From: an uncultured Ruminococcus sp.
GTDB lineage: Bacteria > Bacillota > Clostridia > Oscillospirales > Acutalibacteraceae
Length of the DNA stretch: 64,000 bases
Direction: 5' to 3'
Assembly (NCBI GenBank): GCA_902800065.1
Contig: CADCDE010000001.1
Span: 1-64,000 of the forward strand
The notes under the pieces were generated by a model, which saw only the letters and a program-made list of their open reading frames with translations, was not told the origin of the DNA and ran no database searches. A program made the translations under genes and the position numbers. Shown here piece after piece: positions 25,086 through 26,930 of this stretch; position 1 is the stretch's first letter; every line of letters starts with the position of its first letter.

Positions 25086-25139
25086 CGAAGCGAAAAAATC
25101 ACTTCTCACTCCTAACTCCTCATTCCTCACTGAAAAATA

Positions 25140-25318
25140 AAAATCCGCCCAACCGTCCGTGTCATAAATAACCTGCCTACGAGATAAGCAGGTGGGTGCC
25201 CGCTCAATGATTTCATACTCCCTTCGTCCACCAAGTAAGTGGGAGGTCTGAAGTCCGCCACCGAAGTCAAGCTCCCGAAATAAAATTTGTAGGGTTATAT
25301 AGACACTAATACGCATTG
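25140..25318 (-). ncRNA. ssrS: 6S RNA
   Basis: The minus strand carries TATAAT at 25331-25326 and a transcript of about 180 nt starting near 25318, the right size for 6S RNA. Conserved-looking segments are GGGAGCTTGACTTCGG, CTCCCACTTAC pairing with GGGAG, GTATGAAATCATTGAGCGGG and CACCCACCTGC, then a small ACCTGC/GCAGGT hairpin. This matches my memory of Firmicutes 6S RNAs, which bind SigA-RNA polymerase in stationary phase. A covariance-model search would settle it. The 25319-25430 stretch beyond it holds only the promoter and AT-rich sequence. Confidence 0.8.
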
Positions 25319-25436
25319 GGCAGAAATTATAAACAAATAAATCAAATAAAGTAAATATTTTTTGTACGACTATATTATATAACAAACTTCTGAAAAAATC
25401 AAGAGGAAATTTTATGTTTTTTAATAATTATTGACA

Positions 25437-25760
25437 TTATTCGTCATCGTCATCTTCAAGTGCTTCGTCAAATTTCTCTTCAAACATCTCTGCGAGTGTA
25501 TCGAGGAGAGCCTCGTCATCAATCTCTGCAAGCTGGGGTTCGCCGTTTTCGTCTATTATATCCTCAAAGATCATATAGACATTTTCGGAATCCTCCTGTT
25601 CATCATCGGGCATATCGAACAAAGGCATGAGAGCATAATAATGTCTGTCCTGATAGTCAAGCTCCTCGATGATCTCAAATTCATATTCATTGCCTTCATC
25701 ATCCAAAAGGGAAATAAGGTTGCTTTCGTACATATCGTTATCAAAATCCTGTTTGCTCAT
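25437..25760 (-). CDS. DUF1292 family acidic protein
   Basis: 107 residues, very acidic. ISLLDDEGNEYEFEIIEELD followed by RHYYALMP and ENVYMIFEDI is the DUF1292 (YrzB-like) pattern. The cytoplasmic function is unknown. ATG 25760 follows AAGGAGATG. The C-terminus is a run of Glu/Asp. Confidence 0.85.
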   Translation of the reverse strand: MSKQDFDNDMYESNLISLLDDEGNEYEFEIIEELDYQDRHYYALMPLFDMPDDEQEDSENVYMIFEDIIDENGEPQLAEIDDEALLDTLAEMFEEKFDEALEDDDDE

Positions 25761-25881
25761 TGCGGAACATCTCCTTAAAATAAAAAATTACAATATTATT
25801 TTACGATAAAATCATTAATAAGTCAATAGGAAAATAATTTGTTAAATATATATATATTTTAAAAAAAGTTTAAAAAAACTA

Positions 25882-25909
25882 TTGACATTTTATAAATATG
25901 TGGTATAAT
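25882..25909 (+). promoter_or_regulatory. Consensus promoter of the large RNA unit
   Basis: TTGACA (25882-25887), 16 nt, TATAAT (25904-25909). Both hexamers are perfect; the predicted start is near 25916. Confidence 0.9.
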
Positions 25910-26590
25910 ATACTCAAGATAGATAAAGAGTTCAGCAAGGACATATCGAGAGTGTGTATGTCGAAGCAGTCTTCTATGACTGTGAATGGGGTTTCTTGAT
26001 TATCTGTTTTACGAAAGGAGGCAAGCTCCAATGGGCGAATCAGAACCGGTTATATTTGATTGCGGTACTCGTACCGTTTGGTGCGAGGCTTTCAACGAGG
26101 ATAAGACGGAGTATGGACAGTTTTAAGTTTTTGAGCACGGTGTTATCCGTAGAGATCGGATAAATGGCTCTTGTTTCAACAATATTAAGGTTGTGAGTTC
26201 GGAAAAGTCTTTGAATCGTGCGAAGTTGTCATTTGACACCGCTGATCTCAGGATTTTGACAATTGAATATGTTGTCCGTTAAGAGTGTTGTTTCTTTATC
26301 GGGCTAACCGTTATGACACACGGGGATTGCTTGAAGCCATTGTTCAGGAACAGTGTCTTACAAATGGATTGAACGGAAAATTTCCTCCGTCTGATACCGA
26401 AAGCTCCATGCTGTTGATGATGATCTTTCGTAATGGTATGTGACCGCCAGTGGGGTGGTTGTAGTGAGCAAAGCATTAAGATTCATATTTCGAGGGTGTG
26501 CGGTGGTCAGATCGTTCACCGAATGTAATTTCGGTTTCGGATTGGAATAGAGACCGTGGGCGGTCTTATATATAGAATTTGATATAGATA

Positions 26591-26750
26591 GGATTGAGTC
26601 CAATGTAATTTTCAGTTATGTTTTTGGTTTGCGAATGCGTGACCTGACAGTGTTAATTATTTATTTTGAAATGGAATGAGTCCGATGAAAGTTTGAATTT
26701 TATATATTACAATCTTAATTAAGGAATGAGTCCGATGGTAGTTTGATTTT
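26591..26750 (+). repeat. Three direct repeats in the 3' part of the RNA unit
   Basis: GGATTGAGTCCAATG (about 26591), GGAATGAGTCCGATG (about 26671) and GGAATGAGTCCGATG (about 26726), the last two followed by similar AGTTTGA-TTTT sequence. Each contains an ANGGA-like start and a small stem-loop potential around AGTC. Confidence 0.75.
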
Positions 26751-26774
26751 TGTACCTCCATTGTTTTAAGGAAG

Positions 26775-26815
26775 CAGCTTCGATAGCTTTTGGCTGTCGG
26801 AGCTGTTTTACTTTT
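26775..26815 (+). terminator. Terminator of the large RNA unit
   Basis: CAGCTTCGATAGC (26775-26787) pairs with GCTGTCGGAGCTG (26793-26805) through 13 pairs including two G-U, followed by TTTTACTTTT. Confidence 0.9.
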
Positions 26816-26930
26816 GTTGAAAATTATGGACAGAAAAGTATTGATTTTACTGATGTGTTGAGTTATAATATACACAAATTATTGCTATGTAAATAGTTTT
26901 ATATTTATATTTATTAGGAGGTCGTTTGAA

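Follow-up and report, generated by a model that had tools for sequence, protein, structure and literature searches.

The locus and the boundaries of the RNA gene

Within the window, the whole stretch of 64,000 nucleotides from an uncultured Ruminococcus sp. that was analysed, positions 25880-26815 read as a free-standing RNA gene with its own promoter and intrinsic terminator, from which a single large RNA would be transcribed. The gene and its conserved neighbours are as follows.

25138-25329, minus strand: 6S RNA gene, syntenic with the structured RNA (Rfam match, RF00013)
25437-25760, minus strand: divergent neighbouring gene, which we take to be of the DUF1292 type, syntenic with the structured RNA (ORF reading, synteny)
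25882-25909, plus strand: sigma-70 promoter TTGACA-N16-TATAAT (12/12 consensus positions, kept in homologs)
25916-26812, plus strand: structured RNA (promoter and terminator, 53 aligned homologs, homologous terminators, covariation)
26771-26815, plus strand: intrinsic terminator, a hairpin at 26771-26809 with an 18-pair stem and, behind it, a T-rich tail (compensatory pairs within the genus)

The promoter is the best of 13 promoter-like matches in 2 kb, with its -35 element at 25882-25887, a spacer of 16 nt and a -10 element at 25904-25909 that is preceded by TG (extended -10), and the perfect promoter described in an earlier note on this DNA therefore stands. Most of its consensus positions are identical in 53/53 homologs, and the conserved sequence TCAAGATAA follows. 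The start of the RNA was placed from promoter spacing together with TCAAGATAA and its end is set by the terminator, so that a promoter-to-terminator reading gives a length of ~895 nt. The terminator in the same note is also present, with a stem of 18 pairs and not the 13 given there, and in most homologs a terminator-like hairpin is found 850-1090 nt past the promoter start.

The 6S RNA gene, placed ~600 nt away in the earlier note, lies 553 nt from the promoter. Across homologs the usual order is 6S, DUF1292 gene, RNA: 6S RNA is found on the far side in 18/18 loci scanned, a set in which one site is represented twice, and the divergent DUF1292-type gene adjoins the RNA in at least 42 sequences, a lower bound as several contigs end early. 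The flanking genes, presumably TPI, gpmI, DUF1292 and cardiolipin synthase from ORF reading, are of the housekeeping type, and such flanks are kept across the loci of the genus. Only one other genus showed a tRNA close to the locus. Downstream, a protein gene begins ~115 nt past the terminator in the window, but the gene at this position differs in nearly all homologous loci; because the downstream gene varies and the DUF1292-type neighbour is kept, the RNA is a gene in its own right and not a leader. A promoter and terminator of its own, covarying helices (see below) and independence from neighbouring genes, the marks of a large, conserved, structured RNA gene, are all found here. A phage origin was also considered and rejected, since the viral contigs scanned gave 0 matches to the genus-type core pattern.

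Distribution

Among 119 relatives searched at the DNA level, most genomes of the same genus have the segment. The covariance model R1, built on the interval 26005-26110, matches 58/64 genomes of the genus and 25/26 of those of good quality, with one match each. It also matches three other genera of the family, where 6/6 loci have an upstream DUF1292 gene and a consensus promoter. A weaker match elsewhere in the order (G591, E 9.5e-5), at which neither the promoter nor DUF1292 could be matched, is probably due to chance. When named genomes were scanned with the core pattern, 51/53 matches fell in rumen or gut Ruminococcus, Ruminococcaceae or Clostridia assemblies; two off-lineage matches, in a cyanobacterium (L106) and an acidobacterium (L153), probably also arose by chance.

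By searching with the DUF1292 protein and reading the divergent intergenic regions, the TTGACA/TATAAT promoter and the same sequence motif (described below) were found in many further genera, and scanning 245 genomes of the order for the motif gave ~115 matches versus ~17 for a reversed control (~sevenfold). A second family (f26) has two to three module copies grouped at a 6S locus in 6/6 fetched genomes, in four of which DUF1292 was detected. No recognisable copy was found at the 6S-DUF1292 locus in some of the genera of the family that were examined. Judged from these sequences, the class is widespread, with homologs in many genera of the family and in one other family of the order, while universality would go beyond the evidence. 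Promoter-to-terminator estimates of size among relatives range from ~0.3 to 1.3 kb. Two short versions (L211 and L225) consist of several near-tandem modules and little else and may be minimal forms.

Fold and covariation

The following structural elements were delineated on the plus strand.

25915-26005, plus strand: 5' domain, in which CAAGAUA pairs with a downstream UAUCU in the predicted fold (MFE, RNAalifold; little covariation)
26067-26088, plus strand: hairpin within the short ORF (compensatory pairs)
26090-26225, plus strand: long-range helix 26090-26107 with 26207-26225 (most pairs kept in >85% of sequences; several compensatory A-U/G-C exchanges)
26386-26546, plus strand: long-range helix 26386-26402 with 26529-26546, enclosing the hairpins 26407-26414:26433-26440 and 26495-26498:26517-26520 (RNAalifold, covariation count)

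Folded as a single sequence, the RNA has a minimum free energy of -268 kcal/mol (z = -3.2 versus 20 shuffles), and the comparative evidence for a fold is far stronger than this z-score. The RNAalifold consensus of the 53 aligned homologs contains 153 pairs at -181.8 kcal/mol, and 51 well-kept pairs have at least three double-changed sequences, as against at most 2 such pairs in 20 null alignments. The null, a home-made, R-scape-like procedure, consisted of alignments simulated on the same tree with substitutions placed randomly and folded alike; these fold at 0 to -2.4 kcal/mol, an energy contrast that is exaggerated since the null also loosens conserved columns. An all-against-all covariation analysis of the raw alignment yielded 4 pairs at E <=0.25 and has little power, which is why the structure-based test against simulated alignments was used instead.

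An independent count on the region 26384-26612 found 91.4% of cells paired, versus 76.8% when shuffled and 30-45% with the partner slid, and 203 cells changed on both sides versus 71 shuffled. For the helix spanning 26386-26546, two-sided changes occur in 17/24 pairs and the covariation score is 0.498 versus 0.227 shuffled. The best-supported helices are the two long-range helices, the two hairpins enclosed by the second, and the terminator; in the 5' domain, consensus and single-sequence pairings differ in detail. Covariation refutes a coding or chance alternative for most of the length of the RNA. Together with the promoter and terminator it strongly supports the large, discrete and highly structured RNA that had been suspected.

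Relation to known RNA families

Two identities had been offered for this RNA, a member of a class such as ROOL, GOLLD, OLE or raiA, or a new class. The former is not borne out, as no Rfam 15 model scores on the interval 25800-26900, where a search at E up to 5 returned nothing but two chance-level matches far below threshold, or on 18 homologous loci, where a search at E up to 0.5 returned only 6S, tRNA and matches below the gathering score; the latter is the better of the two. The covariance models of ROOL, GOLLD and OLE have no match in the window interval or at the 18 loci. ROOL is encoded by phages and prophages, frequently close to tRNA islands (PMC12286853), a context that differs from the housekeeping flanks seen here. 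The raiA model is likewise without a match, and at ~895 nt the RNA contrasts with the ~205 nt of raiA. Like ROOL, GOLLD and OLE, the RNA described here is a large bacterial RNA from a single gene, highly structured, of about their length and largely unclear in function; unlike them, it lies in a chromosomal 6S-DUF1292 locus and carries ribosome-binding-like modules and a short ORF.

Other candidates were rejected on similar grounds. The best tmRNA match (RF00023, 153.5 bits) lies elsewhere in the genome on contig C24, so that a separate standard tmRNA is present and the RNA itself has no RF00023 match, although both would be structured RNAs whose short ORF engages ribosomes, as proposed here for the new RNA. 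The sole RNase P RNA match (RF00010, 260 bits) is also elsewhere, on C26. Repeated GGA-containing elements recall the CsrB/RsmZ sponges, but the gene for CsrA (PF02599) is absent from this genome. We found no description of this RNA in the open-access literature searched. Taken together, it is almost certainly a genuine and apparently undescribed structured RNA.

Ribosome-binding-like modules

Repeated modules of the form AGGA-n-UGA-n-UCC-n-AUG occur in the RNA in the window; in other genera they take the form AAAGGNGGUGAGUCCNAUG or end in UCCAAAG. The modules and the short ORF that the first one opens are listed here.

26014-26033, plus strand: module 1, AAAGGAGG-CAAGCUCCA-AUG, Shine-Dalgarno sequence and AUG (AUG in 53/53, GGAG nearly invariant; duplex energy)
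26031-26126, plus strand: short ORF of 31 codons, MGESEPVIFDCGTRTVWCEAFNEDKTEYGQF (open in 53/53 genus and 17/17 divergent genomes; mild synonymous excess, in-frame length changes)
26590-26608, plus strand: module 2, AGGA-n-UGA-n-UCC-n-AUG followed directly by UAA (GGA, UG, UCC and AUG each in 53/53; UAA in most species)
26673-26696, plus strand: extra module copy, GGAAUGAGUCCG-AUG-AAA-GUU-UGA (confined to this species and a few relatives)
26722-26746, plus strand: module 3, AGGAAUGAGUCCG-AUG-GUA-GUU-UGA (conserved motif)

The motif GGA-n-UGA-n-UCC-n-AUG occurs exactly three times in the window, all within the RNA, against a chance expectation for the whole window of 0.23 even when one mismatch is allowed, and a related first copy is present at 26017-26033. 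Beyond the window, the genome contains one additional exact copy and no more. Isolated motif-like copies at other sites of the genome (G000:C68:7370-7384, L234; G000:C38:2267-2279) could be ordinary gene starts. The extra copy at 26673-26687 is limited to a few species, so module copy number evolves within the genus.

The conserved GGA, UGA and UCC blocks are each complementary to the 3' tail of 16S rRNA, GGAUCACCUCCUUUCU, the UCC:GGA pairing leaving a bulged base, and later modules have the extended form of this complementarity, AAAGGNGGUGA-n-UCC or AGGA-n-UGA-n-UCC. Only one genome of the order, a complete one, allowed the tail sequence to be confirmed, the draft genomes appearing to lack that stretch. 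For module 1 the computed pairing with the tail is -18.6 kcal/mol, beyond that of all 37 ORFs of at least 200 codons in the window (strongest -17.0, median -9.1), while modules 2 and 3 reach -10 to -12 kcal/mol. Mean values in other genera are -18.2 kcal/mol for AUGG-type copies, -14.0 for other AUG copies and -14.2 for copies with AAG, compared with -4.6 for random 20-mers.

A unit of ~330 nt was also observed downstream of a tail-protein-like ORF on four IMG/VR contigs (L277, L278, L279 and L280). Its promoter is followed by a single module in the 5' end region (AAAAGGTGAGTCCRATG-TAY-TAA), and it closes with a strong terminator; an Rfam search of the unit on these contigs gave no match. Its sequence suggests a reduced version of the structured RNA that phages carry.

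Reading frames after the modules

The earlier note had seen no coherent reading frame, which holds for long ORFs and fails for the 31-codon ORF behind the very strong Shine-Dalgarno sequence of module 1. This frame is open for 23-45 codons in 53/53 species of the genus and for 18-30 codons in the 17 divergent genomes. Within 22 codons after module 1, stops occur in 0/53 species of the genus, versus 31/53 and 47/53 in the shifted frames; among the divergent genomes the first 17 codons contain stops in 0/17, versus 12/17 and 10/17. Five further first copies are open for 18-25 codons in four cases and for 10 in one, and three more sites tested alongside them read AUG-short-stop or GUG-short-stop. 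Codons with a single difference within the genus are synonymous in 33 cases and not in 70 (fraction 0.32 versus 0.21 expected), and length changes number ~8.6 in frame versus 3.4 out of frame. The case for a plainly conserved peptide is weakened because 9/53 species shift the frame with the nucleotides still conserved (L041, L047, L050, L053, L065, L071, L077, L080 and L086). The peptide begins MGxxEPV here and MGxxxPxxLxSF in some relatives, and is barely alike among other genera.

The frame of module 2 closes at once, as AUG-UAA, in most species of the genus, and later copies elsewhere are mostly AUG-codon-stop or AUG-codon-codon-stop. Among AUG copies that do not resemble module 1, an in-frame stop is found at codons 2-4 in 34/53, versus 23 and 7 in the shifted frames, a comparison in which the +1-frame count (23) is inflated by AUGA overlaps and the sorting into first and later copies was made partly by eye after the sequences had been seen. 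These early stops use all three stop codons and the codons in between vary. As the sequences are related by descent, these counts are not independent, and no formal probability is attached to them. The last module copies have a stop within 10 codons in 36/36, although in this genus the last copy does not set the frames apart. Some copies in other genera carry AAG where an AUG would be expected (L174, L165, L176, L203, L210, L211 and L213); they have an in-frame stop at codons 2-4 in 10/15, which plain initiation cannot explain, and with the same downstream stops they speak against the simplest version, in which the mini-ORFs are mere translation units.

A proposed function and its alternatives

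We hypothesize that this structured RNA engages ribosomes, capturing 30S subunits or ribosomes that are initiating; this is the best explanation of what is seen, with a probability of about one half. The gene would yield a large folded RNA (~0.9 kb here, an estimated ~0.3 to 1.3 kb in relatives), whose fold would present the strong Shine-Dalgarno/AUG module 1, opening an ORF of ~18-30 codons, along with at least one more module, in some cases several, that is complementary to the 16S rRNA 3' tail over an extended stretch and has a stop few codons after its start. At these modules 30S subunits or initiating ribosomes could dock, make little or nothing, and be held or recycled. The RNA may then act as a decoy for, or a sensor of, translation initiation capacity. 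Engagement of ribosomes through repeated extended Shine-Dalgarno modules is the most economical mechanism; a decoy, sensor, parking or recycling role on top of it is conjectural. The sequences themselves show where the gene begins and ends, that it is conserved, covarying and syntenic, that the modules are repeated, that the short ORF stays open, that stops follow the later modules, and that pairing with the 16S tail is computed to be strong; transcription, ribosome binding and any effect on translation are what we infer.

6S RNA occupies RNA polymerase. The proposed function has a loose analogy with this: both are free-standing, regulatory-type RNAs from adjoining genes, the RNA described here being proposed to occupy ribosomes, and they differ in sequence, size and proposed target. 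The lambda bar minigenes provide an example of translated minigenes. Another is known in axe-txe (PMC8708949). The later modules resemble such minigenes in combining a Shine-Dalgarno sequence, an AUG, very few codons and a stop, but recur within one large, conserved, structured RNA.

The main rival to ribosome docking is a large ornate RNA broadly of the ROOL/GOLLD/OLE kind, a scaffold or multimer in which the GG..UGAGUCC motif is structural or binds a protein and the stops eject accidental ribosomes. We regard it as possible and clearly the less probable of the two. Size, fold and covariation fit such a scaffold, and so do the AAG copies, which keep their downstream stops without a start codon. 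Moreover, GGA and UCC could pair locally as a 3-bp hairpin, masking part of the Shine-Dalgarno sequence, and some variants in other genera keep the pairing (GGU..ACC); a hairpin, however, would need GGA and UCC alone and requires neither the UGA block nor strong 16S complementarity, and ribosome ejection leaves the long open frame after module 1 unexplained. RNAIII-type RNAs are structured RNAs that embed a short ORF of ~26 codons. A dual-function regulatory RNA of this type, with a conserved peptide as its main coding product and the remainder base-pairing with mRNAs, would account for a short ORF that is open in all homologs examined, for its synonymous fraction and for its in-frame length changes. 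We consider it unlikely, given that the frame moves in 9/53 species while the nucleotides are kept and that the peptides of other genera are barely alike; to our knowledge, several extra AUG-stop modules are also not part of RNAIII-type RNAs.

Two further readings are very improbable. Length and ornateness are what would speak for a divergent representative of one of the Rfam classes (ROOL, GOLLD, OLE, raiA or another), which is close to refuted by the failure of Rfam 15 to match at permissive thresholds in the window and at the 18 homologous loci. The proximity of the downstream protein gene could suggest its long leader or attenuator, or a decayed gene, but this is already contradicted: the downstream gene changes between species and the RNA stays, and the terminator separates the two. 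A pseudogene or long protein gene was likewise rejected, as a long frame is absent and the covariation is strong, which is not a pseudogene signature.

Significance

The firm conclusion is that the locus holds a new, conserved, large structured RNA gene. Three features had escaped the earlier note: the ribosome-binding-like modules, the short ORF that is kept among homologs, and the 6S-DUF1292-RNA locus found across the family. Large structured RNAs without an assigned function rank among the most puzzling bacterial molecules. The one described here comes from a single-copy chromosomal gene that nearly all good genomes of the genus have, that recurs in many genera and that is linked to the 6S locus. 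It also brings a concrete hypothesis, the docking of 30S subunits by repeated AUG-stop modules. More tentatively, and in our view with the odds against it, it may define a new class of bacterial RNAs that dock ribosomes through repeated modules matching nearly the whole 16S tail, each with a start followed by an immediate or early stop, standing beside 6S RNA as its translation-side counterpart and having reduced copies in phages. If ribosome docking is true, translation would be regulated or buffered here by an RNA that occupies ribosomes.
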